Shown here piece by piece: positions 4,973 through 41,425 of a stretch of DNA of 64,000 nt. Location of the stretch: assembly GCF_029873255.1 (NCBI RefSeq), contig NZ_CP123622.1, forward strand, positions 2,951,001-3,015,000. Direction: 5' to 3'. The notes beneath the pieces were generated by a model that saw nothing but the letters and a program-made list of their open reading frames with translations, was not told the origin of the DNA and made no database searches. This DNA comes from Pigmentibacter sp. JX0631. GTDB lineage: Bacteria > Bdellovibrionota_B > Oligoflexia > Silvanigrellales > Silvanigrellaceae. The number at the start of each line of letters is the position of its first letter. The first letter of the stretch is position 1. The translations under genes were made by a program, and so were the position numbers.

Positions 4973-5083
4973 ATTATTTCAATTTAAAGTAAAATCTTTA
5001 TATTTCATGTATTGTAACTTAAGTTTGAATTATCAACTATTATTTAAAAGAAGTTGTGACAAAAACTTTAGATTGAAAAGAAG

Positions 5084-5953: not shown

Positions 5954-5980
5954 TTTCTTCCTAAAATATTAGAATAATTA

Positions 5981-7297: not shown

Positions 7298-7518
7298 GTT
7301 TTTGATCTTTCTGATTCCAGAGAGGGTGAATATTTAATTTTCCCAATCTTAATCTCAAGAAGATAGCTTGACAACTATTGTTGTAATAATAAGCAAACTT
7401 AATTTTATTGTAAAAAGTAACTAAAATATTTAAATTATTGAATGAATTTAATAAAATAAAAAATAAATTAATTTTTTAAGATAAATTCTAAAATTATTTT
7501 TTTTATATTTGTCGCAGT

Positions 7519-9050: not shown

Positions 9051-9079
9051 TTTAAACCCAACTCATTTAAGCTTTGCAT

Positions 9080-11383: not shown

Positions 11384-11384
11384 C

Positions 11385-12176: not shown

Positions 12177-13356
12177 TTAAATCCTTTCTAAAGTTTTCAG
12201 AAAATTTATTGCAATCTGTAATGTTTTCTGCATGACAAATAAAATGCCCCATTTTTCTTTGTTTAGTTGCAGATTCTTTGCCATATAAAGTAACGGAAAT
12301 AATATTAGGATGATCTTTCCAACAACTTAAATTAAGGTTTTTTTCTTTCTTTTGATTAATCCAAGTAGAACCTAATAAATTACCCATACAAAAATATCCG
12401 GGATACAATTCAGGCTTATTTATTGGTATATCTAATAATATTCTTGCTAGAAGATCATATTGACTTATAGTGCATGAATTTCTTGAAATATGGCCAGAGT
12501 TATGCGGACGGGGAGCGAACTCATTAATATAAATTTGAAAATCATCTATTTCAATTGATTGCTTTACATTATCATTTTTTACTTTTGAAATAAAAAATTC
12601 AGTAGTTAACAAGCCTAAAACGTCCAATTTTTCAGCAGCTTGAATGGCAATATTTTGTAATTTTTGTTGTACAGTTATTGGTAATTGTGAGGGCAGATTT
12701 GTTTGGTATAATATCTGATTCTTGTGAATATTATCAAAGATAGGTAAACATACGGTAATATTTTGAGAATTACGGGCAACTATGCAACTAGCTTCAGAGA
12801 AAATATCAATTTTTTCTTCAATTATAAAAGACGTATTTTCTTTTGTAGTAATCTCAGAAAGAGTTTTATTTAATGCCGTAACATTTTCAATAACCCATTG
12901 CCCTTTTCCATCATATCCACCATACGCTGTTTTTATAATAAAAGGAAAAGGAAAATTTTTTGCCTTAGTAATGAGTTCAGATAAGTTTGAACAAGCAATA
13001 AATTTACAGACTGGTAAATTATTTTTTTGTAAAAAAGTTTTCTCTGCTATTCTATTTTGGGTTATTTTAAGAACATTTTCTGATGGAAATAAAGGTTTTT
13101 TTGTTTTTTCTATCAAAGAATTTAGGAGATCTGTTGCAACATTTTCAAATTCATAAGTAACTAAATCGCATTGTCGAAAAAAAGCTTCGAGTTTTTCAGC
13201 ATCATTCCAATCTCCCTGATAATGAAAAGCTGATTTATGAAAAGAAGGAGAAAGGGGATCGGGATCATAAAAAACTACTTTAGCTCCATAATTGTATAAA
13301 GCCTCAGATAGCATTCCACCGAGTTGCCCACCTCCTAAAATTCCTATGGTTCTCAT
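12163..13356 (-). CDS. purK: N5-carboxyaminoimidazole ribonucleotide synthase
   Basis: PurK converts AIR, bicarbonate and ATP to N5-CAIR. The 397-residue ATP-grasp protein starts with the nucleotide-binding GILGGGQLGGML and has VTYEFENV, the GGYDGKGQWV ATP loop and INEFAPRPHNSGH with the metal ligands. It overlaps purE by 4 bases upstream and pyrF by 14 downstream. PurK plus class I PurE is the standard bacterial two-step route to CAIR. Confidence 0.94.
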   Translation of the reverse strand: MRTIGILGGGQLGGMLSEALYNYGAKVVFYDPDPLSPSFHKSAFHYQGDWNDAEKLEAFFRQCDLVTYEFENVATDLLNSLIEKTKKPLFPSENVLKITQNRIAEKTFLQKNNLPVCKFIACSNLSELITKAKNFPFPFIIKTAYGGYDGKGQWVIENVTALNKTLSEITTKENTSFIIEEKIDIFSEASCIVARNSQNITVCLPIFDNIHKNQILYQTNLPSQLPITVQQKLQNIAIQAAEKLDVLGLLTTEFFISKVKNDNVKQSIEIDDFQIYINEFAPRPHNSGHISRNSCTISQYDLLARILLDIPINKPELYPGYFCMGNLLGSTWINQKKEKNLNLSCWKDHPNIISVTLYGKESATKQRKMGHFICHAENITDCNKFSENFRKDLNESD

Positions 13357-13883
13357 GGTTCTTGCTTTCCTTGATTTTTGCGAGTTTTCTCTTGAACTAT
13401 TTGATTACCTTCAAGGGCATTCATGCTTTTCATCGTGCGCCAGTGTTCTAATTTTTTAAATAAAGCATCATTTTCCATTGCTAAAATTTGAATTGCAAAT
13501 AACGCTGCATTTACTGCTCCTGCTTGTCCAATAGCAAACGTAGCCGTTGGAATTCCGCCTGGCATTTGGACAATCGATAATAAGCTATCTAAACCATTTA
13601 GAGCTTTTGATTGAACTGGAACAGCAAGAACAGGAACCAAAGTCAATCCGCTTACCATTCCGGGTAAATGAGCAGCTCCACCAGCTCCAGCAATGATTAC
13701 TTTAATACCTTTCGTTTTCACAGATTCAGCATAATCAAACATTAATTTTGGAGTCCTGTGGGCACTTATGATTTGAATTTCATAGGGAATATCAAATTCC
13801 GCACAAATGTTTTCACTATATTTTAAAGTTTCGTAGTCAGATTGACTTCCCATTATAATGGAAACAATTGGGCTGTTATGCAT
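13353..13883 (-). CDS. purE: N5-CAIR mutase (class I)
   Basis: PurE moves the carboxyl of N5-CAIR to make CAIR. The 176-residue protein has the class I signatures MGSQSDYETLK, ISAHRTPKLM (with the catalytic His) and GAGGAAHLPGM. A short basic/polar tail follows residue ~160. It sits between purF and purK with overlaps of 8 and 4 bases. Confidence 0.95.
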   Translation of the reverse strand: MHNSPIVSIIMGSQSDYETLKYSENICAEFDIPYEIQIISAHRTPKLMFDYAESVKTKGIKVIIAGAGGAAHLPGMVSGLTLVPVLAVPVQSKALNGLDSLLSIVQMPGGIPTATFAIGQAGAVNAALFAIQILAMENDALFKKLEHWRTMKSMNALEGNQIVQEKTRKNQGKQEP

Positions 13884-15333
13884 TTTTTAATTCCTTTATA
13901 AAGCCACATCCTTTTTGTTGTGCAATTTTATCTTGATAGTTTCCAGTAAAACAAGCAGTACACCATCCTCCATTTTCGTGGGCGGAATTTTCTAACTTAT
14001 TATTTTTTTGGAATTTTTGCATTACAATCAGAAGTTGTTTTTCAGAAAGAAAAGATAGAGAGTCAGATTTTAAATAATCATTCATTTCATTTGAGGTCAT
14101 GACTTGCGCCAGTAAATCTTGTCTTTTGGGAGTATCTATCCCATAAAAACAGGGAAACTTAACAGGAGGGGAGGCGATTCGCATATGCACTTCTTTCGCA
14201 CCTGCTTCTCGCAATAATTCTACTATTTTTTGGGAAGTGGTTCCTCTGACAATACTGTCATCTATAACAATAACTTTTTTGCCTTTGATCGTTTCCCGAA
14301 CAGGATTTAATTTTAATCTTACTTTGAAATTTCTAACATTTTGTGTTGGTTCAATAAACGTTCTACCGACGTAGTGATTTCTAATTAAACCAATTTTATA
14401 CGGAATACCCGAAGCGTTAGCATAGCCCATTGCCATTGGAACACCACTGTCTGGAACAGCAATAACCATGTCTGCTTGGACAGGATTATTCTTAGCGAGT
14501 TCTTCGCCCATCGCAAAACGCGTATCATTTGCTAACATATTCCAAACAAGGCTATCAGGACGAGCAAAATAAACATGTTCAAATATACATTTAGCCTGTT
14601 GCAGATTTTTACTTTGTTGAGTTGTTAAGTTAAAAAATACGCTTTCAATTTTTCCAGTAGTAAGCTCAATACTTAATATTTCTCCAGGAGAAATATCGCG
14701 GATAAATTCAGCGCCAACTAAATCCATTGCACATGTTTCACTTGCAAGAACCCAGCTAGGAATTTCACTCTCATTTTTTATTAAACCAAGAGATAAAGGT
14801 CGATATCCACAGGCATCTACAACGGCATACATATGAGTCGGGGTAAGGAGTAATAAAGAAAATGCTCCGAATAATTCTTCAAAAGCATGGGTAAGTTTTG
14901 CAATAAATTCTTTTTTACTACTTCGAGCCATTAAATGTAAAATAAGTTCTGTATCAGAAGTAGCTTGTAATATAGCGCCTGAGGATTCTAAAAATTGGCG
15001 CATTTCTTCGGAGTTAACTATATTCCCATTATGAGATAAGGAAACAGGAACTCCACCAATACGAGCAGTTAGTGGTTGAATATTTGCGTCAGAGTTTCCT
15101 CCAGCAGTGCTGTATCTAACATGCCCTATAGCATGATTACCTTTTAGTTTAGTTAAATCTGTTTCTTTGAAAACATCAATAACTAAACCAGAATTCTTAT
15201 GACTAATAATTTCAGTAGAATTGGTTGAGGAAATGCCAGCACTTTCTTGACCCCTATGTTGTAAAGCAAAAAGACCAAGATAAGCTATTTTTGAAGCATT
15301 TTCAGTATTAGTTACTCCAAAAACTCCGCACAT
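13876..15333 (-). CDS. purF: Amidophosphoribosyltransferase
   Basis: PurF makes phosphoribosylamine from PRPP and glutamine, the committed step of purine synthesis. In the 485-residue protein the nucleophile Cys is residue 2 (MCGVFGVTN), so no propeptide is needed beyond Met removal. The glutaminase domain has LQHRGQESAGIS and GHVRYSTAGG. The PRTase domain carries the PRPP loop VIVIDDSIVRGTTS. Near the C-terminus several Cys residues (WCTACFTG) recall the Fe-S ligands of the Bacillus-type enzymes. Start and stop overlap purL (1 base) and purE (8 bases). Confidence 0.95.
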   Translation of the reverse strand: MCGVFGVTNTENASKIAYLGLFALQHRGQESAGISSTNSTEIISHKNSGLVIDVFKETDLTKLKGNHAIGHVRYSTAGGNSDANIQPLTARIGGVPVSLSHNGNIVNSEEMRQFLESSGAILQATSDTELILHLMARSSKKEFIAKLTHAFEELFGAFSLLLLTPTHMYAVVDACGYRPLSLGLIKNESEIPSWVLASETCAMDLVGAEFIRDISPGEILSIELTTGKIESVFFNLTTQQSKNLQQAKCIFEHVYFARPDSLVWNMLANDTRFAMGEELAKNNPVQADMVIAVPDSGVPMAMGYANASGIPYKIGLIRNHYVGRTFIEPTQNVRNFKVRLKLNPVRETIKGKKVIVIDDSIVRGTTSQKIVELLREAGAKEVHMRIASPPVKFPCFYGIDTPKRQDLLAQVMTSNEMNDYLKSDSLSFLSEKQLLIVMQKFQKNNKLENSAHENGGWCTACFTGNYQDKIAQQKGCGFIKELKNA

Positions 15334-17843
15334 TACTTTGTTTCCTTTTCAGCGCATGAAAGTGTGTCAAAATATTTTTTAAGGGAACTAGAAAAATCTG
15401 AATAAACAAGATCATGATCATATATAGGCATACTTATATTAGATCCAATTGGTTTTAATTCTGCTATTTTAGTAACAACGATATCTGTGTGGATAGAAGA
15501 ATTAAATATTGATTCAAAGTTTTCTTCTTCTTTAAATCCTAAAATAAAGCCCATATTTCCTTCAGAAAATAATTCTTTGCTAGATTTTTTCCATAATGCT
15601 TTTTCTAAATCTATTAAACAATTTGAATTTAAAGCTAGAGAAATTAAAGAACCTAGCATTCCTCCATGTCCTATGGGTCTAGAAATTTTTGGTGACTTTA
15701 GTTGAATTGTTTTTAAAATGAAATTCCAAATATTTTTTTCACTACTTATATTAATTTTTGGACAATCAGAATTTTCTCCTCCAAAAATCCATGCCGTTTG
15801 AGAAGCAAGGTAACTTGAATTTTCAAGAGAATTACTTAATGAAATGTGATATAACTTTATTGATTTTTCTTTAGTTTTATCAAAATATCTTATAGGTAAT
15901 CTATCTAAAGGTACTTTGTTAACATCATCAACTCTGCCAACCATTCCTAACATCGGAGTAGGAGGAATTGGTATACCTTCTGTTTGATTGTTTAAACTTA
16001 CATTCCCACTTACTATCGGAATATGCATTTCTTTTGCTATTAAATTAATTCCATCAATTGCATCTGAAAATTGTCGCATTACATCAGGTGATTTGGGACT
16101 TCCAAAATTTAAACAATCAGTCATAGCTAAAGGAACAGCTCCACTGGCAACTAATTTTCTAGCAATTTTTAATGCAGTTAATGCTGAACCATGAAAAGGA
16201 TCTAATTCAACCCAACGCTCTTCGCAGCCTCCTGCGATTGCGATTCCTGTAGTACTTAACTTTCCATTAGAATTTAATTCTTGTGCATATTCAGGTAAAC
16301 GGACAACACCAGCGGAAGCTGTTTGTAAAGATCCACAAGCTGCAACACTATTTCCTTGAACAGTTGAGCAATAATTATGAAATACAGGTGATCTGTTTGC
16401 ATTCATCGGATGCGCAAAAAGTTTAGGAATTAAATTTGGATAACGTTCAATCAAATTTTCTAGTTGAATATCTGAAAGAATGTCATTATGAATATCTGAA
16501 TTTTTTAATGATAAAGACAAACTTAATTTATCTGTATCATTTTTTTGCTGCCAGATATTTTCTGTTGCTTCGTTTTTAATTATTTTTTTCTCTTGTAAGT
16601 ATTCTTCTTTCCTTTGAATTGGCCAATTGTATTTAGGTGTTTCATCCACTAAAATTGGAACTGGAGTTGCAGTTACAATTGTGTTATCAAAAATACATGT
16701 GAATAAACCTGTAGCATTTACTTTTCCAATTTCAGCATAAGTGATATTGAATTTTTCCAATTCAGATAGAACGGCAGAAACATTTTCGGGTTTTACTGCG
16801 CACAACATTCTTTCTTGTGATTCGCTTAAAAGTATTTCCCATGCTTGCATATTGCTTGCACGTTGAGGAACTTTATTTAAATCGATGGCAACACCGCAAC
16901 CAGAACGACCTGCCATTTCTACTGAGCTAGATGTTAAACCTGCAGCACCCATATCCTGCAGACCTATTGTTAATTTCTTTTCAATTAACGATAATGTAGC
17001 TTCTAATAAAACTTTTTCCGCGAAAGGATCCCCAACCTGTACAGTTGGTTTAAGAGTGTTCCCCGTGGATGAAAATTCGGAGCTACTCATCGTAGCTCCA
17101 TGAACGCCATCACGTCCTGTTGCAGATCCAAAATAAATTAAAACATTTTCAGATTCTGGAAACAAAATATTTTGCAAATCAGCATTTATATTTTGTTTGA
17201 TTTTTATCTTTTCAATATTTGTTACTTTACTTGTTGTTTCTTCAGAAAGAATTCCTTTAAAAATTTTATCTTTATGAATTAATCCAGCATTAAAAGCATT
17301 TACCAAAATATTTTTACTATACTTATTATGAAAACTAATATCGCCTGTTACTGTAGGTACACCAACAGAGTTTCCGTAGTCACCAATTCCACGAACGGTA
17401 TCGCGAATTAATTTTGCATTCCATGTTCCTTCACCAAAACGCAGACAATTTAAGCTTGCTATTGGATAAGCTCCCATACAAAACACATCACGCAGGATAC
17501 CGCCAACACCCGTCGCAGCTCCTTGATAAGGCTCTAAGTAACTAGGGTGGTTGTGAGATTCCATTTTAAAAGCAATTCCATAATTTTTATTTATTGCTAT
17601 TACACCCGCATTTTCTCCAGGTCCTTGGATAACCCAAGGTTCTTCTGTGTGAAATCTTTTCAAGTGAACTCTTGAAGATTTATAAGAGCAGTGTTCGCTC
17701 CAAAGTGCACCACAAACTGCTAACTCTTCATGACTTGGTATTCTATTTAATTTAGTGCAGAAATTTATTAATTCTTCTTTGTTTAAACCAAATTGCTGTG
17801 CTTGAGCTACAAATTCAGCTGTTAGGAGGTTTGAATCAAACAT
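15333..17843 (-). CDS. purL: FGAM synthase, synthetase subunit (small-type PurL)
   Basis: The 836-residue protein is the ATP-dependent synthetase subunit of the PurS-PurQ-PurL complex that converts FGAR to FGAM. Motifs seen are CGALWSEHCSYKSS, FKMESHNHPSYLEPYQGAAT, GGILRDVFCMGAYPIA, LQDMGAAGLTSSSVEMAGR and GGCEERW. It is somewhat longer than the typical ~740 residues because of insertions around residues ~200-230 and ~425-465. Small-type PurL lacks the built-in glutaminase and PurS-like domain, so it needs PurQ (adjacent, 8-base overlap) and PurS (found fused to PurB at 18636-18866). Confidence 0.95.
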   Translation of the reverse strand: MFDSNLLTAEFVAQAQQFGLNKEELINFCTKLNRIPSHEELAVCGALWSEHCSYKSSRVHLKRFHTEEPWVIQGPGENAGVIAINKNYGIAFKMESHNHPSYLEPYQGAATGVGGILRDVFCMGAYPIASLNCLRFGEGTWNAKLIRDTVRGIGDYGNSVGVPTVTGDISFHNKYSKNILVNAFNAGLIHKDKIFKGILSEETTSKVTNIEKIKIKQNINADLQNILFPESENVLIYFGSATGRDGVHGATMSSSEFSSTGNTLKPTVQVGDPFAEKVLLEATLSLIEKKLTIGLQDMGAAGLTSSSVEMAGRSGCGVAIDLNKVPQRASNMQAWEILLSESQERMLCAVKPENVSAVLSELEKFNITYAEIGKVNATGLFTCIFDNTIVTATPVPILVDETPKYNWPIQRKEEYLQEKKIIKNEATENIWQQKNDTDKLSLSLSLKNSDIHNDILSDIQLENLIERYPNLIPKLFAHPMNANRSPVFHNYCSTVQGNSVAACGSLQTASAGVVRLPEYAQELNSNGKLSTTGIAIAGGCEERWVELDPFHGSALTALKIARKLVASGAVPLAMTDCLNFGSPKSPDVMRQFSDAIDGINLIAKEMHIPIVSGNVSLNNQTEGIPIPPTPMLGMVGRVDDVNKVPLDRLPIRYFDKTKEKSIKLYHISLSNSLENSSYLASQTAWIFGGENSDCPKINISSEKNIWNFILKTIQLKSPKISRPIGHGGMLGSLISLALNSNCLIDLEKALWKKSSKELFSEGNMGFILGFKEEENFESIFNSSIHTDIVVTKIAELKPIGSNISMPIYDHDLVYSDFSSSLKKYFDTLSCAEKETK

Positions 17844-28262: not shown

Positions 28263-28278
28263 GTTTTTTCTTGAAAGG

Positions 28279-28320
28279 AGTGGATTTGTTGCGGTTTAAA
28301 GTGACAAATCCGCTTTATTT
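28279..28320 (+). terminator. Flagellin terminator
   Basis: AGTGGATTTGT (28279-28289) pairs with ACAAATCCGCT (28304-28314), an 11-bp stem with one G-U pair and a 14-base loop, then a T-rich run (TTATTTT). It starts 17 bases after the flagellin stop. Confidence 0.75.
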
Positions 28321-28321
28321 T

Positions 28322-29080
28322 ATGGTTGAGATTATAAATTTTGCAAAAAAAATTTCGTTAATAATTTTCTTTTTATTTTCTCAAAATGTGCATGCAAAAA
28401 TAAAAATATTTGCTGCAGAAAATCCTCCTTTAATAATGCAAGATAAACAAAATAAAATAACTGGTATTGGTGGAGATATTTTTGTTAATTCTCTAAATTT
28501 GTTAAATGATGAATATGAAATAGTTTGGTTGCCATGGTTAAGAGCATTTGAAGAGTGTAAAAAAAATAAAAATTCTTTACTCATACCAATTGGTGGAAAT
28601 AAAGAGAATAAAAAAATTTTTAATTTATTTGGTGAACTTTATGAAGATTCTGTGCATTTTTTTACAATTAGTCCGCAAAGAGAAATAAAAACTTTTGCTG
28701 AGATTAATAAATTAACTTCTTTAGGAATGATATCAGGAGCACCATTTGCTGATATTGTTGAGAATTATGGATTAAAAGATAAGCTTGAAATTTCTTATAA
28801 TGGTGAATTGCTTATTACTAAATTAAAAAATAATAGAATTGATTCTATAATAATAACAAAACTATTAGGAACATTCAAACTGTTAAATGCTAAAGTAGAT
28901 TTTAATAATATTCAAAAAGGGATATCCATAGGGACTATGAAATGGTTTATTGCAGCTAATAAAGATTTTCCAAAAGGACAATTAAATAAACTAAAAAATA
29001 AACTAGAAAAATTTAGAAAAACTGAAAAATACCAGCAAATATTAACAAAATATTTTTCGGTAACAAAGAAAAAAGATTGA
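28322..29080 (+). CDS. Periplasmic solute-binding protein, family 3-like
   Basis: The protein begins with a signal peptide (residues ~1-25, hydrophobic run SLIIFFLFSQNVHA), then KIKIFAAENPPLIM, GIGGDIFVNSL and WLPWLRAFEECKK, the fold pattern of SBP_bac_3 proteins. Its length (about 252 residues) fits. No permease genes lie next to it, so it could feed a distant transporter or act as a sensor input. The ATG at 28322 was chosen because upstream in-frame TTG codons fall inside the flagellin terminator hairpin. No good RBS precedes this ATG, so the start remains uncertain. Confidence 0.7.
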   Translation: MVEIINFAKKISLIIFFLFSQNVHAKIKIFAAENPPLIMQDKQNKITGIGGDIFVNSLNLLNDEYEIVWLPWLRAFEECKKNKNSLLIPIGGNKENKKIFNLFGELYEDSVHFFTISPQREIKTFAEINKLTSLGMISGAPFADIVENYGLKDKLEISYNGELLITKLKNNRIDSIIITKLLGTFKLLNAKVDFNNIQKGISIGTMKWFIAANKDFPKGQLNKLKNKLEKFRKTEKYQQILTKYFSVTKKKD

Positions 29081-29092
29081 CTCAAAGATTTT

Positions 29093-29395
29093 TTAATTAT
29101 CTTTCATTTTATAAAAAGAATATTCTTTTACAGTGTTGTTTTCATTAAACACAACATATAATCTTTTTCCTGACAAACTTAATGAGGACCCAGTGATAGA
29201 TAAATATTCAAATATTAATATATTATTACTAAAACCAACCGAATCAGGTTCGCCAAATATTTTGATAATATCTTTTTGTGTAGTTATATTTGTTTTTATT
29301 TCTGTTGTTTTTGTTTGGTCAAATTTTTTTCCTACAGAAATACACCCTTGGAGGTTTAATAAGAATACTAATGATATTAATATGGTGATTTTCAT
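29093..29395 (-). CDS. Small BamE/SmpA-like lipoprotein
   Basis: About 100 residues with a lipoprotein signal (lipobox LQGC) and a segment TTQKDIIKIFGEPDSVGF. That segment matches the SmpA/OmlA (BamE-like) pattern of a helix followed by FGxPxx. Start taken at the ATG 29393-29395 rather than the TTG two codons upstream. It follows the similar lipoprotein at 29402-29770 directly, so the two are a tandem pair likely derived by duplication. Function unknown; probably envelope located. Confidence 0.7.
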   Translation of the reverse strand: MKITILISLVFLLNLQGCISVGKKFDQTKTTEIKTNITTQKDIIKIFGEPDSVGFSNNILIFEYLSITGSSLSLSGKRLYVVFNENNTVKEYSFYKMKDN

Positions 29396-29401
29396 GAACA
29401 A

Positions 29402-29770
29402 TTATCTTTCATAAGTTTTAAGAATTTTTTCTTTTTCTGCTGGAACAGTTGTATAATATGTATTGTCTAAGACTGTTTTATCATCTGCAAAAGTTATTAA
29501 AAGAATTTTTATTTCAGATGATTTTATTACAAAAAAGTAATGTTTAAAACCGGCATGAACATAAGTAAATGTTTCTTTTCCCATGATATAATGAATTTGC
29601 TCAGGTTCACCAAAGTTTTTAATGATTTCGTCTTTGGTTGTTACATTTTTAGTAATATTAAAAGCATCGCCTGTTATTTTTTTAGGGAAGATTTGGCAAC
29701 TAGCTAAAATAAAAATTGAAAAAAAAATGCTGATGAAATTTTTAAATTTTGGTAATCTATAACTCAACAA
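29402..29770 (-). CDS. Small BamE/SmpA-like lipoprotein
   Basis: A 122-residue lipoprotein (signal residues ~1-25, lipobox LASC). It contains VTTKDEIIKNFGEPEQIHY, the same helix-FGEP motif as its downstream neighbour at 29093-29395. Its promoter region ends 94 bases upstream at the insertion site of the Tn402-type transposon. Before that insertion, the small secreted-protein gene at 37358-37561 would have been its upstream neighbour. Confidence 0.7.
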   Translation of the reverse strand: MLSYRLPKFKNFISIFFSIFILASCQIFPKKITGDAFNITKNVTTKDEIIKNFGEPEQIHYIMGKETFTYVHAGFKHYFFVIKSSEIKILLITFADDKTVLDNTYYTTVPAEKEKILKTYER

Positions 29771-29863
29771 GATAAACTCCTATAAATCTATGACATTTAG
29801 ATACATATTGTATAAAATGTTAGTAGTCTTTACTTTAATTTTTTTTTAAAATCAATAAATGAG

Positions 29864-29868
29864 AAAAT
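29864..29868. repeat. Target-site duplication, left copy
   Basis: AAAAT immediately precedes the left transposon end (TGTCATTTTCC). An identical AAAAT follows the right end at 37234-37238. Five-base duplications are the rule for Tn402/Tn5053 elements. Confidence 0.85.
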
Positions 29869-29992
29869 TGTCATTTTCCAGAGTGAGTGTCATTTAGGCA
29901 GGAATGAAATTAGGTAGTTATCCATAGAGGATGTCAAAAGTTTTTTCCATAGATCCTGTCATAATATGTTAAAATTTCCATACTCCCTGTCA
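29869..29992 (+). repeat. Left transposon end with four ~19-bp TniA-binding repeats
   Basis: Copies lie at 29874-29892, 29918-29936, 29943-29961 and 29974-29992, with a consensus near TTTTCCATAGwggnTGTCA. Tn7/Tn402-type ends carry arrays of transposase sites like these. The last copy ends 13 bases before the tniA start, so TniA binding could also repress its own promoter. Confidence 0.85.
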
Positions 29993-30005
29993 CAGGATTA
30001 TAATA

Positions 30006-31724
30006 ATGGAAAAACAGGACGTTACCGAAGAAAACGAAAACTCTGGGACATCTTCTTTGGCAATTGGGCCAGTAAGATTGTCAGAACCAGCTTGGGAAGA
30101 AGCTCGCTGCAGAGCAAGAATCATCCAATCCCTTTTAAAGATACCAAAAATTTCAGAAAAAAAAAGACAAGCAGCCGCAAATGAGCTTGGCATCTCTAAA
30201 CGCACATTATCAAGATTGATTAAACGCTATAAAGCGTCAGGAAATCTTTTAAGTGCACTTGCGCCTCAGCCTCCGAGCGGTGGACTAGGTAAGCCAAGGA
30301 TAAATGAAAATGTTGAATCAATTATCCATAAAGTGGTTAGAGAGCTTTACCTAGATAAACAAAAAAGAAAAATATCTAAAATCGTACAAGAAATCCGAAG
30401 GAGATGCATAGAAGCAAATATTACGCCTCCTGGGCAAAATACTGTTCGTAGGCGAATCTCGCAACTTTCTTTGGAAAAAGTTTTTGAAAAAAGATCTGGC
30501 AAATTATCTGCTCATCCTTTTACAGCAAATCATGGTCCAGCCGTTACTGCTCAATATCCGCTTGAGATGTTCATGATAGACCACACAAAAGTAGATGTTA
30601 TTGTAGTAGACGAGCAACAACGCCTCCCTATTGGAAGACCATGCCTTACATTAGCAATCGATGTCTTTAGTAGATGCATTGCTGGTTTTTACTTAAGTTT
30701 TGAAGACCCATCAGCAGTATCTGTCGGCCTGTGTTTAACAAATTCAGTATTTGATAAAACAGATGTCCTTAAAAAATATAATATTCAACACAGCTGGCCA
30801 TTAAAAGGCAAACCAGAAAAAATCGTAGTGGATCAAGGAAGCGAATTTAAAAGCGAAGCATTGCGCAAAGGGTGCGAACAGCATGGTATTTCTATCCATT
30901 GGAGGAAAATTGGTTATCCACATCTAAATGGAGTTATTGAGCGTGTTATTGGTACTTTCATGAAAGAAATACATGAAATTCCTGGTACCACCTTTTCAAA
31001 TATATCCGAACGTGGAAATTACGACTCCACTAAAATGGCCGTTCTAACAATGCCTGAACTAGAAAAATGGCTCACCCATGCAATTGTTGGGAAATATCAT
31101 CTGGAAATTCATTCCTCGCTTATGGAAACACCGCTTTCGTTATTCCATCGTGGAATAGAAACGAGGAAAAAAGAAATAAATTTAGTGAAAAACCAAAAGG
31201 CTTTTTTAATCGATTTTTTACCCATAGAAAGAAGAACTCTTCAACGACATGGATTTGTGATCGATCATATTTTTTATTTTTCTAATGCATTAATACCTTG
31301 GATTTCATCAGGTAAAATAAACGAAAAATTTATGATTCGCAGAGACCCTCGTAATTTAAGCAGGATTTTTGTCCTTCATCCAAAAGAATTCCAGTATTTA
31401 GAAATACCATATAGAAATATTGCTCGTCCTGTCATTACATTATGGGAACATCGAGAATCTTTGCGAAGGCTAAAAGAAAGAGGCTTACGTCATTTTGACG
31501 AGGCTTTAATCTTCAGGACTCTTTTGGAAATGAAAGAAATTATAAAAAATGCTAAAAAAGAAACTCAATCTGAAAGAAAAAAAAGAGTAAAAAATGAAAA
31601 TGCTAAAAAAAATACGCTAGATATAAAAAGTAACAATAGTTATTATAATTCGAATAAAAAAGAACAGGAAGAATTCGACATACATTCCATTAAACCATTT
31701 GAAGATATTGAGGATTGGTCATGA
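30006..31724 (+). CDS. tniA: TniA transposase (DDE integrase, Mu/TnsB-like)
   Basis: The 572-residue protein has an N-terminal helix-turn-helix (~50-75, AANELGISKRTLSRLIKRY) and an RNase H-like core starting FMIDHTKVDVIVVDE. The catalytic triad is D192, D276 (VVDQGSEF) and E312 (NGVIERV), giving a D(35)E spacing. PIGRPCLTLAIDVFSRCIAG is typical of the TniA/TnsB group. A beta-barrel and a charged C-terminal tail (~500-572) follow; the tail probably contacts TniB. It catalyses strand transfer at the transposon ends. Confidence 0.95.
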   Translation: MEKQDVTEENENSGTSSLAIGPVRLSEPAWEEARCRARIIQSLLKIPKISEKKRQAAANELGISKRTLSRLIKRYKASGNLLSALAPQPPSGGLGKPRINENVESIIHKVVRELYLDKQKRKISKIVQEIRRRCIEANITPPGQNTVRRRISQLSLEKVFEKRSGKLSAHPFTANHGPAVTAQYPLEMFMIDHTKVDVIVVDEQQRLPIGRPCLTLAIDVFSRCIAGFYLSFEDPSAVSVGLCLTNSVFDKTDVLKKYNIQHSWPLKGKPEKIVVDQGSEFKSEALRKGCEQHGISIHWRKIGYPHLNGVIERVIGTFMKEIHEIPGTTFSNISERGNYDSTKMAVLTMPELEKWLTHAIVGKYHLEIHSSLMETPLSLFHRGIETRKKEINLVKNQKAFLIDFLPIERRTLQRHGFVIDHIFYFSNALIPWISSGKINEKFMIRRDPRNLSRIFVLHPKEFQYLEIPYRNIARPVITLWEHRESLRRLKERGLRHFDEALIFRTLLEMKEIIKNAKKETQSERKKRVKNENAKKNTLDIKSNNSYYNSNKKEQEEFDIHSIKPFEDIEDWS

Positions 31725-32644
31725 TAGAAGTGAACTTTAATAATGCTTGCTCACTTGAGCATCTTATCCCTCAAATGAGAAAAACTGCTTTGTTACCTAA
31801 TGAAGAACGCATTGCTTATATTCGTGCAGATAGATGGATAGGTTATTCAAAAGCACAAGAAGCAATTTCTAAGCTTCAGAAACTCATTGATCACCCTAAA
31901 CGCCAAAGAATGCCTAATCTCCTTATTGTTGGCCCTACAAATAATGGAAAATCAATGATTATCGAAAAATTTAAACGCATGCATAAAGTTATTTCTTGCG
32001 AAAATACTCCAAAAGAAACAATACCGATCGTAGCACTACAAATGCCAAGCGATCCGACCATAGCCAGATTTTATTCCATGCTTCTCTACAATTTGGGAGC
32101 ACCTGTTACTATGAAATGCAAAGTTGCTGACTTAGAACATGTTGCTTTAAAATTATTAAAACAATTATCTACCCGTATGATCATTATTGATGAACTACAC
32201 AATATACTTGCTGGTAGAATAAATGTTCAAAGAGAATTTCTTAACCTTATTAGATTTATTGGGAATGAACTTCAAATTCCTATTGTCTGCCTTGGTATTA
32301 GAGAAGCTTATCTTGCCATACGCACAGATGATCAACTTGAAAACCGTTTTGAACCACACATTTTACCATTATGGGAAGATGATAGAGAATTTTCAAGTTT
32401 GCTTGCAAGTATTATTTCAACATTTCCATTGAAAATGGCTTCATTTTTACTAGAAAAAGACATACGTCAATATATTTTAAGGAAAACAGAAGCTACTATT
32501 GGCGAAATTATTTCTTTGCTTTCTAAAACAGCTATTTTAGCTATTGAAAGCGGTCAAGAATACATCGATTTAAAATTGTTAATGCAAGCTGACTATGATT
32601 CTCCAACAGAAAGACGTAATAAATTTGAACGTGAATTACAATAA
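31721..32644 (+). CDS. tniB: TniB AAA+ ATPase transposition regulator
   Basis: This AAA+ protein of about 307 residues is related to TnsC and MuB. The Walker A reads VGPTNNGKSMI and the Walker B reads MIIIDELHNIL. LENRFEPHILPLW follows with the sensor/arginine-finger region. TniB selects target DNA and activates TniA. The ATG at 31721 overlaps the tniA stop (ATGA) and follows TTGAGGAT; this start is preferred to the TTG two codons earlier. Confidence 0.93.
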   Translation: MIEVNFNNACSLEHLIPQMRKTALLPNEERIAYIRADRWIGYSKAQEAISKLQKLIDHPKRQRMPNLLIVGPTNNGKSMIIEKFKRMHKVISCENTPKETIPIVALQMPSDPTIARFYSMLLYNLGAPVTMKCKVADLEHVALKLLKQLSTRMIIIDELHNILAGRINVQREFLNLIRFIGNELQIPIVCLGIREAYLAIRTDDQLENRFEPHILPLWEDDREFSSLLASIISTFPLKMASFLLEKDIRQYILRKTEATIGEIISLLSKTAILAIESGQEYIDLKLLMQADYDSPTERRNKFERELQ

Positions 32645-33852
32645 TGAAAAAGAGATTTCCAGTATGGCCTCATCCTTATAAATTGGAATCATTAAGCTCA
32701 TGGATTATGAGAATTGCTGATTATTATAGGATCAATGTTGATACTTTATTTGAAATTGGATTTTTGCTTCAAAAACCAAGTTCTTGGTGGGATATTGATG
32801 TTTCCCCAAGTGCAGAATTATTGAACAAAATTTCAATAAATACAGGATTGTCATTAAAATATTTAAATGAAATGACTGTTGCAGGAATTTCTCCTTGGGT
32901 TATTGATTCAATAAAACCAGTATATGATTTTGAGTTTACAAGATTAACTACTTCATTCTGTATATTAAATAGTAATTCCCCTTATTTTAATACAAATTCA
33001 AATTGTAAAAAATCTTTGCTACCGTGGATGCCTAATGTTCCATGGAAATCAACTAGGATAAATCGTTTTTGCCCTATATGTATAGAAAATAAAGACTTAG
33101 ATTTACCTAATCTACTTGTTTGGAGAACCGTATTAGTATCATCTTGCCTAAGACATGAATGTTTGCTTGTAGAGACAAAAAATAATTCTTGGGATCAGTT
33201 GTCTTGGAAAGAAAATATTATAAGTACAAAATATTTGAATACTTGGCTCGATGAAATCACACTTAATGCAATTGAAACAGGTTTTGCAAAACTTGGCAAT
33301 GAAAAAATAAATGTTAGTATTTGGGTCAGGTTTTTAAGAAGCCTTTTTCATGAACTTACGATAGAAAGCAGAGATTTTAAAGATCAAGAACGAATTAATG
33401 AAATTTGGCGGTATGCAGGACTTAAAAAACCAAGAAACAAAATATTTGAGCTTCTAGAAATAAAAGAAAGAGCTAATGTTACTAAATGCGCAGCATATTT
33501 ATTACAAGATTTTCCAAGACAGATAATTTCATTTATCCCAATTAGTAGAAATATAAATCAAATATTTTTGCCAAATTTTATTGCTAAATATTTTGGACAA
33601 AATGAAATATATTATGATCTCTTTTTAAAAGAAGAAAACTCTAAAATTGAAATGACTTACAATAATAGAAAAGGAGAAAGTTTTTTACCAGCCGCTAAAT
33701 TATTTGTTTCACTGATCCAAAATAAAATAAATAAACATGATAAATCAGTTGAAAAAAGAAATATTATAGGAGCTGAATATTTAAGTAATTTAAAAGAAAA
33801 TAATATTTTTGCAAGAGATGGAGAGAATACAAATTTTTGTAAAATGGATTAA
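32644..33852 (+). CDS. tniQ: TniQ target-selection protein
   Basis: The 402-residue protein begins with the TniQ domain (FPVWPHPYKLESLSSWIMRI) and carries zinc-ligand pairs, one as FCPIC around residue ~140 and one in SCLRHECLL ~35 residues later. C-terminal regions are divergent, as is usual. TniQ connects target recognition to TniB. It is coupled to tniB by a one-base overlap (TAATG) and ends directly against the convergent ASCH gene (stop codons adjacent). Confidence 0.9.
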   Translation: MKKRFPVWPHPYKLESLSSWIMRIADYYRINVDTLFEIGFLLQKPSSWWDIDVSPSAELLNKISINTGLSLKYLNEMTVAGISPWVIDSIKPVYDFEFTRLTTSFCILNSNSPYFNTNSNCKKSLLPWMPNVPWKSTRINRFCPICIENKDLDLPNLLVWRTVLVSSCLRHECLLVETKNNSWDQLSWKENIISTKYLNTWLDEITLNAIETGFAKLGNEKINVSIWVRFLRSLFHELTIESRDFKDQERINEIWRYAGLKKPRNKIFELLEIKERANVTKCAAYLLQDFPRQIISFIPISRNINQIFLPNFIAKYFGQNEIYYDLFLKEENSKIEMTYNNRKGESFLPAAKLFVSLIQNKINKHDKSVEKRNIIGAEYLSNLKENNIFARDGENTNFCKMD

Positions 33853-34245
33853 TTATTTATTTGGAACATAGCAAAATGACATAGGAGCTCGTTTTATCTC
33901 AGAAAATAGATCTTGTATAAAGGCTGGTTCGTTAAGTTTTATAGGATTTCTAATTTCTAAAACTATAAATTCTTGAAGTCCTCTTATATAATTTAATACT
34001 TCTTCTCTATTATCACCTGATTTCTGAATATAAAAATCTGCAAATTGAGCTTCAATTTTTTTAATACTTAAAATTTGACATTCTCCCAATATTTTTCCAA
34101 CTGGTTTTGTGGCATAAATATAAACTTTTGTTCCTGTCGGTAAAATAGGAAAACGACGTCTAAATTCAAGTCTTTTTTTTCCTTCGAGAATTTTTAAAGC
34201 AAAATCTGGATGTAGGCTTAATAAAATAGATTTATCTTTATTCAC
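33853..34245 (-). CDS. ASCH (PUA-like) domain protein, transposon cargo
   Basis: The 130-residue protein is a single ASCH domain: SLHPDFALKILEGKKRLEFRR at the N-terminus carries the conserved Lys/Glu/Arg pattern. A strand VYIYATKPVGKILGECQI and a C-terminal SFCYVP follow. ASCH domains belong to the PUA-like fold and bind RNA or modified nucleotides; some hydrolyse N4-acetylcytidine. It is the only leftward gene in the transposon and is divergent from the cargo genes at 34720 and 35752. Linking it to the Mom-like gene as reader or processor of a modified base is inference. Confidence 0.8.
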   Translation of the reverse strand: MNKDKSILLSLHPDFALKILEGKKRLEFRRRFPILPTGTKVYIYATKPVGKILGECQILSIKKIEAQFADFYIQKSGDNREEVLNYIRGLQEFIVLEIRNPIKLNEPAFIQDLFSEIKRAPMSFCYVPNK

Positions 34246-34719
34246 TGTAAACTCACTTAAATCATGTTAAATTTTAAAATACTGTTAAATTATTCAATTA
34301 TAATATATTGAAAATATTGCATTATATATAGTATTTTTACTCTATAAATACCATTTTATCAACCTTTGGAAGTGTATCAGAAAGTTACTGAAAAATAATC
34401 ATTTAATTTTAATATTCTAATTAATCATTATATATCAATAGTATAAATGTATTTTAACATTCCAATTAATCATTGAATAGAAAATAAGCTATTATATTGC
34501 TGATAGTATTGACATAAATAACAATCCGAGTCTCAATACATTTAAGCTTTTTCTTAAGGATTCTTTAAATCCCCGATAATAAAGAAATTATTCAAATTAA
34601 ATTTATGTACTAGTATTTTAATAATCATATCAGCAAATTCGTAGTAAAGCATTTGATATATTTAAAATTTTTTAACTTTGCCGATAACAAGAAGTCTTAA
34701 AATTAGAAGGATATAAAAA
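34246..34719. other. Divergent non-coding region in the transposon cargo, with a direct repeat
   Basis: 474 bases without a gene between the ASCH gene and the 340-residue cargo gene. A 24-base direct repeat is present at 34407-34430 and 34452-34475 (shared core CAATTAATCATT or TAATTAATCATT), 45 bases apart. It could be an operator for an unlinked or element-encoded regulator. The region is very AT-rich and should contain both promoters; I could not fix their boxes. Confidence 0.5.
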
Positions 34720-35742
34720 ATGCCTTTAGAAACAATTTTATTAACTGGAGAATTACACCATCGATATGTAGAAGATACTTTGACTTGTCTAGGTGCTCCT
34801 GAAGGTTTTGTTATTAGATTTGATTATCGCAAAAAATATAAAGATCCAGATATTTCTAATCCAAATATAGATGATACTGTTTACTTATTTTCTTATAAAG
34901 GAAAGATAGAAGATAAAAATTGGTTTCCTACACGGATTGCAAAAATTAAGCATTTTTTTGAAGATGAAGACTCTTATCATTACATATTGGAACTTAAAAA
35001 TTCTATAGTTGCAAATGAAAGTTGTACAAATCATTCAGGTACACTTAAAGAATTTCAGGGAAAACTCAATATTACAGCTGGTGATATGTATCATATTCGA
35101 AGAGAAAATATTTCCACAGAGCTTATTTTAAAAAGAGAATTACCAATAAATTTTAAAGAAATTGTAGATTATTCCCTTCGTCATTCAGAACTTTTAAAAA
35201 GTAAAGATATTATATTTTCCACAATTTATTTACTAGATAAGAATAATAAAAAAATTATTCTAAAGTATAAAACGAGAAAAAAAAATGTAGATAGTTTCAC
35301 ACCTAAATATCAGCTACCATTCTCACTTTGCAATTTAATTAATGAAATCAATATTAAGATTGAATTTTATTCTCCAAATATAGGTATATTTTCACATAAG
35401 ATGAAAATTGATGAAACTATTTCAAGTAGTAACAAAAAAACCCATAGTATTAATCTTGGAGCAAGGCAAGATATTTATATTACTCGTATTCCAATCAACC
35501 GAAGTTGGTTACCACGTGAAGCAAGTTTTGAATTTCTATCAGAATCTGAAAGTACATTTACTCAGCGTTTAAAAATAAAAATACCACTTCAAATAAATAT
35601 AGGAATTTGGATTTTGATTTCTATAACATTGCTCTCTTATGCATGTATTTCAAGTACAAAAAATATTTGTAGTTTTTATTGCGAATTTATTAAGGCCATA
35701 ATAACCGTTATAGTATTAAAAATTCTTACAAGAGATAAGTGA
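34720..35742 (+). CDS. Unknown transposon cargo protein with two C-terminal membrane helices
   Basis: I do not recognise this 340-residue protein. Residues ~1-285 appear soluble and beta-rich (PEGFVIRFDYRKKY, DTVYLFSYKGKIED, SYHYILELKN). Two hydrophobic helices lie at ~292-310 and ~320-336, and it ends TRDK. There is no signal peptide, so the large N-terminal part should stay in the cytoplasm, anchored by the tail. This topology recalls sensor/effector proteins of defence systems, in which a membrane tail is the toxic part, but no effector family was identified. RBS GAAGGAT is good. It lies 9 bases upstream of the Mom-like gene, so the two are co-expressed. Confidence 0.6.
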   Translation: MPLETILLTGELHHRYVEDTLTCLGAPEGFVIRFDYRKKYKDPDISNPNIDDTVYLFSYKGKIEDKNWFPTRIAKIKHFFEDEDSYHYILELKNSIVANESCTNHSGTLKEFQGKLNITAGDMYHIRRENISTELILKRELPINFKEIVDYSLRHSELLKSKDIIFSTIYLLDKNNKKIILKYKTRKKNVDSFTPKYQLPFSLCNLINEINIKIEFYSPNIGIFSHKMKIDETISSSNKKTHSINLGARQDIYITRIPINRSWLPREASFEFLSESESTFTQRLKIKIPLQINIGIWILISITLLSYACISSTKNICSFYCEFIKAIITVIVLKILTRDK

Positions 35743-35751
35743 CATATTTTT

Positions 35752-36357
35752 ATGTTTAATTCTAATGAGTGCGAAATTAAAATTATTAGTAGAAAAGAAT
35801 GTCTAGATTTTATTAAACTCTATCACTATCAGCCAGGGCTACCTGCAGTTACATGGAACTATGGAATATTTTATAATGGTATAATCATTGGTGCAATAGC
35901 TTTTGCACCACCCAGTTCACCAACTATATATAAATTATTTAGAGGGATATTTAAGAAAAAAACAATTTTTCAATTATCAAAATTTGCATTATCACATTTA
36001 GCACCTAAAAACACGGGTTCTTACGCTCTTTCTAAATGTCTAAAAATATTTAAAAAAGAAAGACCAAAAATAGAGTGCATTATTACTTATTGCGATATGG
36101 AAAGAGGTTACAAAGGAACTGTATTTCGTGCCGCAAATTGGATTGATATCGGCCTTTCTTGTAAAGGAGGCGCTCAAGCTTATTATCATGGGAGAAAAAG
36201 AATTACAGCGCGAGAATTTAATCGATTTAATAATTTAAATATTAAAAATCATTATAGAAAAGAGAAACGTACAATAAAAATAAGATATATATATTTATTT
36301 GATCGAAAAATTCACGATTTTCTTTTAGAATTAGATTCAAATTCTGTTAAGGAGTAG
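35752..36357 (+). CDS. Mom-like GNAT-fold protein (putative adenine hypermodification), transposon cargo
   Basis: The 201-residue protein follows the pattern I know from the phage Mu Mom family. An HY pair occurs near the start (LYHYQPGLPAVTWNYGIFY), then GIIIGAIAFAPPSSPTIYK, a QLSKFALSHLAPKNT segment, and the core IITYCDMERGYKGTVFRAAN followed by WIDIGLS and a YHGR motif. Mom converts adenine in DNA to a carbamoylmethyl form that blocks restriction enzymes. Mu Mom is a little longer (~230). If correct, the transposon carries its own anti-restriction mark, as Mu does. A different GNAT-related activity is the main alternative. Family assignment is from memory of motifs, not from a search. Confidence 0.7.
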   Translation: MFNSNECEIKIISRKECLDFIKLYHYQPGLPAVTWNYGIFYNGIIIGAIAFAPPSSPTIYKLFRGIFKKKTIFQLSKFALSHLAPKNTGSYALSKCLKIFKKERPKIECIITYCDMERGYKGTVFRAANWIDIGLSCKGGAQAYYHGRKRITAREFNRFNNLNIKNHYRKEKRTIKIRYIYLFDRKIHDFLLELDSNSVKE

Positions 36358-36424
36358 TTAAAAATTTGATTTATATATTTATTAAATTAAAGAGCCGTAT
36401 TTTTTTAGCTATAGAGTTATCATT

Positions 36425-36454
36425 TATTCTCACAAATGACCGTTTTTGAGAATA
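36425..36454 (+). other. Putative res (resolvase) site
   Basis: A perfect 8-bp inverted repeat, TATTCTCA (36425-36432) and TGAGAATA (36447-36454), spans 30 bases. This is the size of a crossover subsite for serine resolvases. It lies 120 bases upstream of tniR. The stretch 36499-36550 has partial copies (TTCTCAATAACC, ATTCTTGTTCTG) that could be accessory subsites. Confidence 0.6.
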
Positions 36455-36574
36455 TTTCTATGTGAAAATTCAGATCGCATTACCATTGGAAAACTTCTTT
36501 CTCAATAACCATTCTTGATTCTAAATTCTTGTTCTGATAACTTCAGATGAGTTTTGAGAAGGAGAAGCTATAAA

Positions 36575-37141
36575 ATGCTTATTGGTTATGCAAGGGTTTC
36601 AACACTAGAGCAAAATCTAGATTTACAAGAAAAAGCATTGCAAAAATCAGGTTGCAACAAAATCTTTGTGGATAAAGCAAGCGGAAGTCGCTCTGCACGA
36701 CCTGGATTAGAAAAATCTCTTGAACAATTAAGAGAAGGCGACACTTTTATCGTTTGGAAATTAGATCGTCTTGGAAGAAACATCAAAGATCTAATCGATT
36801 TTGTAAAAGATCTTGAAGCTAAAAAAATCGAATTTAAAAGTCTCACTGATAATATTGATACTTCGACTCCTTCTGGGCGTTTCTTCTTTCATACAATGGC
36901 TGCACTTGCTCAAATGGAACGAGAACTCATTATAGAGCGCACTAAAGCTGGTTTAAAAGCTGCTAAGGAACGTGGTAGAATTGGTGGCAGAAAAAGAAGA
37001 ATGACTGCAAATAAACTTGAATCTGCAAAAAAATTACTAAGCAGTGGAACCCCTCCAAAAGATGTGGCAATGAGTTTGGGTGTTTCTATTCCTACTCTGT
37101 ATCGATGGCTGCCAGCCCATACTCACTCTGAAGCTTCATAA
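36575..37141 (+). CDS. tniR: Serine resolvase of the transposon
   Basis: About 188 residues, a small serine recombinase: MLIGYARVSTLEQNLDLQ with the catalytic Ser, SARPGLEKSL, VWKLDRLGR, and the helix E segment MAALAQMERELIIERT. It ends in a helix-turn-helix (PKDVAMSLGVSIPTLYRW). It resolves cointegrates at res. The ATG at 36575 follows GAAGGAG and is preferred to a TTG seven codons earlier that lies upstream of this RBS. It ends 92 bases before the right transposon terminus. Confidence 0.93.
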   Translation: MLIGYARVSTLEQNLDLQEKALQKSGCNKIFVDKASGSRSARPGLEKSLEQLREGDTFIVWKLDRLGRNIKDLIDFVKDLEAKKIEFKSLTDNIDTSTPSGRFFFHTMAALAQMERELIIERTKAGLKAAKERGRIGGRKRRMTANKLESAKKLLSSGTPPKDVAMSLGVSIPTLYRWLPAHTHSEAS

Positions 37142-37188
37142 AATCATTTAAACTAAAGGGCGTTGATCTTATTCAGATATTTTAAAAA

Positions 37189-37233
37189 TGACATCCTCTT
37201 TGGAAATTTGGACATCCACTATGGAAAATGACA
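37189..37233 (-). repeat. Right transposon end with two TniA-binding repeats
   Basis: Two inverted copies of the ~19-bp end repeat lie at 37189-37207 and 37210-37228. The terminal GGAAAATGACA mirrors the left end. A 4-left/2-right arrangement is asymmetric, as in other Tn402-like elements. Confidence 0.85.
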
Positions 37234-37238
37234 AAAAT
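37234..37238. repeat. Target-site duplication, right copy
   Basis: AAAAT directly after the right end, matching 29864-29868. Confidence 0.85.
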
Positions 37239-37357
37239 ATTTTATTGAATCTTTTCTAAAAAATTAAAATTGTTATGAAAAGTGTTTTTCTGTGAGCTTA
37301 GTTTTCTAGATCAAGAAAAATTATTGAATACTATTAAAAAGAGAATAGATAAATGTT

Positions 37358-37561
37358 TTAATTAATAACTACAGAATTACTTGCCATTTTTTCATAAAAT
37401 GAATAAGTCATATAGTAAATACCATCTTTGTAATCTATTTCGTTACTATTTCCAGAATCTTCAAAAATTAAATTCGGGTTCTCTTCTTTTGCAACAGAAG
37501 ATAAAGATAAGGCTGTAAAAAATGTAACAATAGATATTTTGCACAAATTTGAAATTCTCAT
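37358..37561 (-). CDS. Small secreted protein of unknown function
   Basis: A 67-residue product with an N-terminal signal peptide (hydrophobic run SIVTFFTALSLSSVA, cleavage likely after VAKE or nearby). An acidic mature part of ~45 residues follows (FEDSGNSNEIDYKDG). A strong RBS, GGAGGGG, sits just before the ATG, supporting that it is real. No family recognised. The transposon inserted 120 bases downstream of its stop. Confidence 0.6.
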   Translation of the reverse strand: MRISNLCKISIVTFFTALSLSSVAKEENPNLIFEDSGNSNEIDYKDGIYYMTYSFYEKMASNSVVIN

Positions 37562-37696
37562 TTACCCCTCCAAATAAAATTTTAACTATTTTGAATAAGT
37601 TTAACTTAAAAGATTTTAATTACAATTGGTTATGTCAATATTTTTTTGTGAATAATCGGAAACAAGTATTTTTTTGAATTCTTTTTATATTGTGAT

Positions 37697-39859: not shown

Positions 39860-41425
39860 ATGTACGATTTGCTTCAGGTTATGCAGCAAGATGGGTACCT
39901 GTCTTCTGGAGAACTCATAGCCTTAAGAAAAACATGCAAAGAACTAGGTGAAAATCCAGTTCGTATATTGCGTTCATTAAATATAGCTTCACCCGAGCAA
40001 ATACAAGAATATTTACAAAGATATTTTAGAGTTAATGCTTTAGGGGATCAGGCAATTACGTTGTTAAATGAATCATATCAATCATATATTCCTATTGATA
40101 TTGCCGTTCACTATAGTTGTTTTGGTTTGGGTGAAGAAAACTCTGCGATATATGTTGCAATGGAAGACCCTTCTGATAGGGGGACAGTTCAACAGTTACG
40201 TTTTTTTTTAAATAAACGAATCATTCCTATTGCTGCTACAGTCTTTCAATTGGCAGAAGGTCTGCATAAAATATATCGAATTAGTATTCCAAATTTAAAG
40301 TTAACAACCGTGATTGAACGCTCAAGAGGAGTGATAGGTGGATTAAGATATGAGGCTTCTTATGAAACTAGTGCTCTTGCCATTGATGGTGATAAACAAA
40401 TTAACAATCTTGCAAAATTAGAGGCAGATAATGTTAATGAATTTGTAAATAAAGGTTCAAAGAAAAATAAAACTAGTGCCCCAGGGCATGATGATGAAGA
40501 ACCATCACCAGAAATTGCATTTCCAGAGATGAATAACACTATTTATACACCAAGTCCGACTGTGGGTTTTATTGATGGAAGTAGTGGAGAAATTGCAAAA
40601 GGAGTTTTAGATGTTGAGGAGTCTAAAAAGGAAGTAAAGGCAGAAACAGGAAGTACGACATCTGAACCTGTGCAACCTTCCAACGCTTCTCCAAGCGAAG
40701 CTCCGGCAGAAGAAGGAATTAGTGAAGAGAGTGCAGCAGTTAGTGCAGCCCCAAGCGAAGCTCCGGCAGAAGAAGGAATTAGTGAAGAGAGTGCAGCAGT
40801 TAGTGCAGCCCCAAGCGAAGCTCCGGCAGAAGAAGGAATTAGTGAAGAGAGTGCATTAGAAAGTGCTGAAGTTAACGAAACAGCTAATAATGTACCGGCA
40901 GAAGAAGGAATTAGTGAAGAGAGTGCATTAGAAAGTGCTGAGGTTAACGAAACAGCTAATAATGTAACGGCAGAAGAAGGAATAAGCGAAGAGAGTGCAT
41001 TAGAAAGTGCTGAGGTTAACGAAACAGCTAGCGAAGCTCCTAGGGAAGAAGAAATTAGTGAAGATATTGAACTTACAGATTCAGATCAGGAAAATTCCAT
41101 ATCATCAAATGAGCCAATAATTACAGAAGAAAACTCAGATGAGCTTGATGATAAGCAAATATCCGAGTTATCTGCTTTGGCAAGCATAGCTTCAGTTAAG
41201 TTAACTATGCTTAGTAATCAGTCTCAAGCTATAAATTACATGAATTCAATTTTACAAAATCATAATATTTCAGTTTCATTTGATGGAAACAATACATATG
41301 AAATTAAAGGTCAAAATTTCTCATCAGTTGGTGATTCTAAATCCATTTTAAATCAAAGCGATAATAAAATTTACTATGCACTTGATCCAATTTTAAAACA
41401 AATTTTAAAAATGAAGTTAGAATAA
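39860..41425 (+). CDS. MshEN-type (GspE N-terminal) domain protein with acidic repeat region
   Basis: 521 residues. Residues ~1-150 resemble the N-terminal domain of type II secretion/type IV pilus ATPases ([39 protein letters not shown]-like end), a fold that in MshE binds cyclic di-GMP. No ATPase domain follows. Residues ~275-395 are acidic repeats built on [10 protein letters not shown] (five good copies), followed by a ~100-residue C-terminal segment with no recognised fold. It is followed by a methyl-accepting protein and a flagellin-like gene on the same strand, which suggests a motility-control module. Confidence 0.65.
40691..41045 (+). repeat. In-frame tandem repeats coding [10 protein letters not shown] units
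   Basis: 60-bp units at 40691-40750 and 40751-40810 are identical. A third begins at 40811 and then changes into 72-bp units ending ETANNV at ~40860-41040. Near-perfect DNA identity indicates recent expansion, so copy number probably varies between strains. Confidence 0.85.

Follow-up and report, generated by a model that had tools for sequence, protein, structure and literature searches.

The role for which Mom is chiefly known is the protection of phages against restriction. The locus described here raises the question of whether a protein of this family can also ride on an ordinary transposon and, if so, what it would do there. The stretch of DNA analyzed, hereafter the window, comprises 64,000 nucleotides of Pigmentibacter sp. 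JX0631. The reading favored here, with a probability of about 0.55, is that a divergent Mom enzyme is carried as cargo of a Tn402/Tn5053-like transposon, that it belongs to a module with a GevA-like ASCH-domain protein and a membrane-type orphan protein, and that it probably works like Mu Mom.

The ORF at positions 35752–36357 of the forward strand encodes 201 amino acids, is intact, without stops, and contains all the motifs from which the earlier note had claimed membership of the Mom family. This membership is borne out by profile, sequence, and structure. In a profile search, residues 7–188 match Pfam PF25680 (Mom) with 96.8 bits and an E-value of 1.8e-27—the curated cut-off of this family being 27.1 bits—and PHROG 1384, “Mom-like DNA modification protein,” matches with an E-value of 1e-32. 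Mu Mom reaches an E-value of 4e-10 in BLASTP and is, as entry 8bv8, the sole sequence match in the PDB. The AlphaFold2 model, built with an alignment of 37 sequences, has a pLDDT of 89.5. Foldseek ranks both chains of 8bv8 first (E-values of 6.7e-13 and 7.6e-12, TM 0.69–0.70), and the top viral structural match is the Mom of a Salmonella phage. The best non-Mom structure is the GNAT Naa60 with an E-value of 1.3e-7, about five orders of magnitude weaker than 8bv8. A check for a stronger match to another GNAT subfamily, hence, found none, and such an assignment was rejected because Mom is best by profile, sequence, and structure. The ORF encodes a divergent, remote Mom-family GNAT protein; since it is remote within the family, enzymatic identity is not to be assumed. 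The gene is present in a single copy in the 3.65-Mb genome, which carries no other Mom, and a profile search of 58 genomes of the phylum found no other Mom among them.

An alignment of 38 Mom relatives shows no variation at H25, Y26, N87, S90, D115, G122, N129, G134, H146, and Y179, and G47 and L75 are likewise kept in the window protein. S90 aligns with S124 of Mu Mom. The inactivity of S124A is taken from the title of 8bv8, “phage Mu protein Mom inactive mutant S124A,” and the statements on the active site made here are based on the alignment and on this title. The other 37 relatives have about 17 invariant positions in common, five of which are changed in the window protein (G52A, E74Q, R77K, S112T, and Y125F); the invariant set is a conservation pattern and no formal rule of the family. 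Its terminal branch in the tree measures 5.45 changes per column versus a median of 0.47, about 10 times the median, and its placement in the tree is not firm. Because of the five changed invariant positions together with the long branch, substrate or activity may have changed.

The gene lies within a transposon of 7365 bp (29869–37233), both ends of which begin with TGTCATTTTCC and are flanked on the outside by an identical 5-bp target site duplication, AAAAT, at 29864–29868 on the left and 37234–37238 on the right. The left end (29869–29992, forward strand) features TGTCATTTTCCAGAGTGAGTGTC followed by more TGTCA-containing sub-repeats; the right end (37189–37233, reverse strand) features TGTCATTTTCCATAGTGGATGTC as the reverse complement plus sub-repeats, so that extra TGTCA-containing repeats lie inside both ends. 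All four transposition genes are on the forward strand. The transposase gene tniA (30006–31724), with rve and Mu-transpos_C domains in Pfam, encodes a protein 43.5% identical to TniA of Tn402 on R751. It is followed by tniB, an AAA+ ATPase gene (31715–32644; PF05621, E 2.1e-72; 52.5% identity to Tn402 TniB), and by tniQ (32644–33852; PF06527, E 5.8e-16; 29.6% to Tn402 TniQ). A tniR-like serine resolvase gene (about 36575–37141; PF00239, E 4.1e-48; 48.7% to Tn402 TniR) closes the element, its start being set at the ATG after AGAAGGAG. Directly upstream of it, at 36425–36563 on the forward strand, repeated and inverted TTTTGAGAA motifs look like a res site. The earlier note had placed Mom on a Tn402-type carrier, and this holds for TniA, TniB, TniQ, and the serine resolvase as well as for the ends and the AAAAT duplications. 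Mom is, thus, cargo inside a precisely bounded, complete-looking Tn402/Tn5053-like transposon. The element has a G+C content of 30.5%, the same base composition as the window; no RNA families were found in it, and a scan for promoters and terminators gave no signal above chance.

Two relatives show the locus without the element. In G002, the flanks of which are 88% identical, synteny skips from 28371 to 37253, and in G006, it skips from 28266 to 37670, which indicates that the element is absent there along with some genes to the left of it. Because these left-hand genes are missing as well, the empty site is not base-exact. The genes concerned—one for a solute-binding protein and two small lipoprotein-like genes at 28372–29868—are absent from both relatives and apparently constitute a separate lineage-specific segment. 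To the right of the element, the ORF at 39860–41425 contains repeats of about 60 bp (40685–41012), for which alignment to a relative is possible in many registers; their copy number, hence, probably varies.

Three cargo genes lie between tniQ and the resolvase gene: an ASCH-domain gene on the reverse strand (33853–34245), a 340-residue orphan gene (34720–35742, forward strand), and mom. The orphan protein has two strongly hydrophobic C-terminal segments within residues 288–337, predicted as helices from hydropathy, and, hence, looks membrane-anchored. It matches no family, and searches of 56 genomes and of plasmids, phages, and viral contigs gave no relatives; its AlphaFold model, built without relatives, has a pLDDT of 37 and is useless. 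The orphan gene ends 9 nt before mom and shares its reading frame. Across 34720–36357, only one TGA and three codons separate the two genes—a shared frame is expected by chance in one case out of three—and readthrough would fuse the membrane-type protein to Mom.

The ASCH protein (PF04266, E 1.2e-6; PADLOC PDC-M11B, E 2.4e-22) is 36.6% identical to GevA, a protein of Escherichia phage PhiR47_2 annotated as the antitoxin that counters the toxin GevT; GevA matches PDC-M11B and GevT matches PDC-M11A. The ASCH gene is common to GevTA and the window. A relative of GevT lies within 200 nt in 77 of 80 viral ASCH loci, whereas the window has no GevT-like gene next to ASCH, the other cargo proteins here being the Mom GNAT and the membrane-type orphan. 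The ASCH gene of the window, hence, lacks the partner it usually has and lies near a mom gene. Neither Mom nor the 340-residue protein yields a PDC-M11A match, and a GevT-like toxin hidden in either gene was ruled out for lack of sequence similarity to GevT. Mom occurs in none of the 80 ASCH loci and ASCH in none of 88 Mom loci. Operons that combine GNAT-EVE and ASCH have been described, with the ASCH proposed to bind modified DNA (PMC7641849), and the name and gene order of GevTA fit these operons. GevT itself, which has no Pfam match, would be a GNAT-EVE protein as judged by its sequence and context.

In Mu, Mom serves to evade restriction, and its product is carbamoylmethyl-adenine, with a mass shift of +57 Da. 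An extension of restriction evasion to ordinary transposons, as raised in the earlier note, would be a possibility. The Mom GNAT fold would use a donor of the acyl-CoA type and would attach a bulky group to the exocyclic nitrogen of DNA adenines. The DNA of the carrier would then resist cleavage by restriction enzymes, or the mark would tell self from invading DNA, and the ASCH protein might read the modification or restrain the Mom enzyme. Proteins of this family are likely to attach an acyl-derived group to the N6 position of adenine in DNA (PMC7824862). The enzyme is predicted to be active, with adenine in DNA as the probable target and a putative benefit in conflict with phages or restriction systems. 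A role in conflict is supported by the surroundings of related Tni elements in the same host group, which include CBASS and type IIG restriction genes. The presence of mom as transposon cargo, beside a gene of a type usually found in a phage-conflict toxin system, suggests that an ordinary transposon has acquired a conflict tool that would modify DNA. Against this reading as a whole speaks that the element has neither a restriction enzyme to pair with the modification nor a Com regulator. The modification would, moreover, mark the whole replicon and not the element alone, and since the element has no transfer genes, a transposon gains less than a phage from protecting its own DNA.

An origin as a prophage remnant, with Mom lying by chance beside transposon genes, would agree with Mom being mostly a phage gene. 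It was rejected as extremely improbable in view of the element boundaries and the element-free locus in G002 and G006: Mom is located between tniQ and the resolvase gene, within ends that carry a perfect 5-bp duplication, and the element contains no phage structural or replication gene. The long branch (5.45 versus 0.47) and the changes at G52, E74, R77, S112, and Y125 would also suit a passenger that was acquired from a phage by the transposon and has decayed or been repurposed, being inactive on DNA or using another acceptor. The full-length open frame without stops, the confident model (pLDDT 89.5), the mostly conservative nature of the changes, and the retention of the remaining invariant residues, including the serine, argue against this, and it is considered unlikely.

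The association with ASCH points to a different alternative, in which the Mom GNAT replaces the GevT toxin of a toxin-like or defense module, the ASCH protein is an antitoxin or a reader of modified bases, and the membrane-type protein is a further effector; the outcome would be addiction or abortive infection rather than hiding of DNA. The ASCH protein is of the GevA/PDC-M11B kind, the viral genes of which adjoin a GevT-like gene in 77 of 80 cases, mom is the only GNAT-fold gene near ASCH here, the 340-residue protein carries its two C-terminal hydrophobic helices, and Tni-type elements of the genus adjoin CBASS genes with 2TM effectors. Yet Mom has no detectable sequence similarity to GevT, and the arrangement differs: GevA overlaps GevT, whereas here ASCH is on the opposite strand and the 340-residue gene lies between it and mom. 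Nor does any other ASCH–Mom pair occur in the 80 ASCH or the 88 Mom loci. This alternative is considered unlikely. A transposon-borne conflict system for addiction or phage defense, and not for hiding phage DNA—with the Mom adenine modifier as effector, ASCH as reader or antitoxin, and the membrane-anchored protein as a third part—is rather improbable; if true, it would constitute a previously undescribed ASCH–Mom module.

The discovery of mom among the cargo of a TniABQ transposon shows that ordinary transposons can carry genes for DNA hypermodification, and the element is a natural case for asking about the role of Mom where there is no phage to protect. The accompanying GevA-like ASCH gene makes it possible to test whether adenine modification is connected with the proteins that have been suggested as readers of modified bases.

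Tn402 (Tn5090) on R751, Tn5053, and the window element have in common tniA, tniB, tniQ, a serine resolvase, TGTCATTTTC ends, and a 5-bp duplication. The window element features the traits of the Tn402/Tn5053 type, namely terminal inverted repeats beginning with TGTC, a 5-bp target duplication, tniA/tniB/tniQ, and a resolvase. The ends of Tn402 on R751 are TGTCATTTTCAGAAGACGA, beginning with TGTCATTTTCAGAAG and TGTCGTTTTCAGAAG. The tni and resolvase proteins of the window are 30–53% identical to those of Tn402. The cargo of the window sits between tniQ and the resolvase gene, whereas in Tn402 the resolvase gene directly follows tniQ and the cargo lies beyond; unlike that of Tn402/Tn5053, the cargo is neither an integron nor mer.

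The nearest Tni relatives are an element of the same genus (L099; TniA 88% and TniB 94% identical) and one on a Pigmentibacter ruber plasmid (L101), in which TniA is in two pieces with 72% and 86% identity; both have an end nearly identical to that of the window element. The stretches read of these two relatives contain no ASCH, 340-residue, or Mom genes. By themselves, the TniA relatives point to a probable host among the Silvanigrellaceae. The host genome carries a second Tni-like transposase set (L134; G000:C1:1518500-1537500, about 4500–16600), described here from its gene content, with a resolvase 90% identical to that of the window. Its neighbors are an MmeI-type IIG restriction enzyme, PIN_12, a SMODS/AGS-C CBASS cyclase with a SLATT_6 2TM effector, and GmrSD_N-HNH. 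In the same-genus relative G005 (L135; G005:C4:538000-556000, 4999–7622), a broken, truncated tniA directly precedes the genes for a CBASS cyclase and a Cap15 effector. Among the known cargo classes of this transposase superfamily, defense genes are a leading one; its largest cargo survey mentions neither Mom nor ASCH in the main text (PMC8649781).

Compared with Mu Mom (8bv8, PF25680), the window protein has the same profile, a GNAT-type fold, the serine that is mutated in 8bv8, and the motif positions H-Y and D in common, both proteins comprising about 200–240 residues. The identity is 22% over 134 residues, and the ELNR motif, conserved elsewhere, is altered in the window protein by E74Q and R77K. 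Mu Mom is encoded by a phage, the window Mom by a Tni transposon. The Mu mom operon has an overlapping com gene, encoding a small zinc-finger translational activator, whereas the mom of the window has no com and is preceded by the 340-residue orphan gene; no GATC sites occur in 34246–34719.

The best sequence relatives are the phage Mom proteins of Bacillus phage Riggi, Acinetobacter phage JeffCo, Listeria phage A511, and Vibrio phage ICP1, with about 24–30% identity over most of the length. The viral Mom loci examined have no ASCH, tni, or 340-residue gene nearby, and none of the 88 Mom loci has relatives of these genes next to Mom. A single-protein scan of viral contigs found nothing. When genome contigs were scanned with the Mom alignment, just two further Mom loci emerged, both lacking tni. 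No second Mom-bearing transposon came to light, the genome-wide search consisting of a single pattern scan of contigs and a profile search within one phylum. With phage Mom as the query, tblastn matched 70 plasmid records, some of which may be phage-plasmids, and six that were tested or chosen for testing exceed the Pfam cut-off. The plasmid genes, among them those of Sphingobium sp. CAP-1 p3, Bradyrhizobium pCB82_1, and Variovorax, belong to other Mom branches and are themselves on mobile elements, some with no phage genes listed nearby and none with tni genes within the stretches read. The plasmid p3 of Sphingobium sp. CAP-1 is conjugative; its Mom-family gene (L122, 6926–7702) is annotated as hypothetical and is close to an N-6 DNA methylase gene, and other sphingomonad plasmids give similar matches. 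According to a review of jumbo phages (PMC7824862), both phages and bacteria encode momylation systems, and Mom outside phages is, hence, not new. What appears to be new is a bounded, complete-looking Tn402/Tn5053-like transposon that carries Mom as cargo, with a GevA-like ASCH gene alongside.
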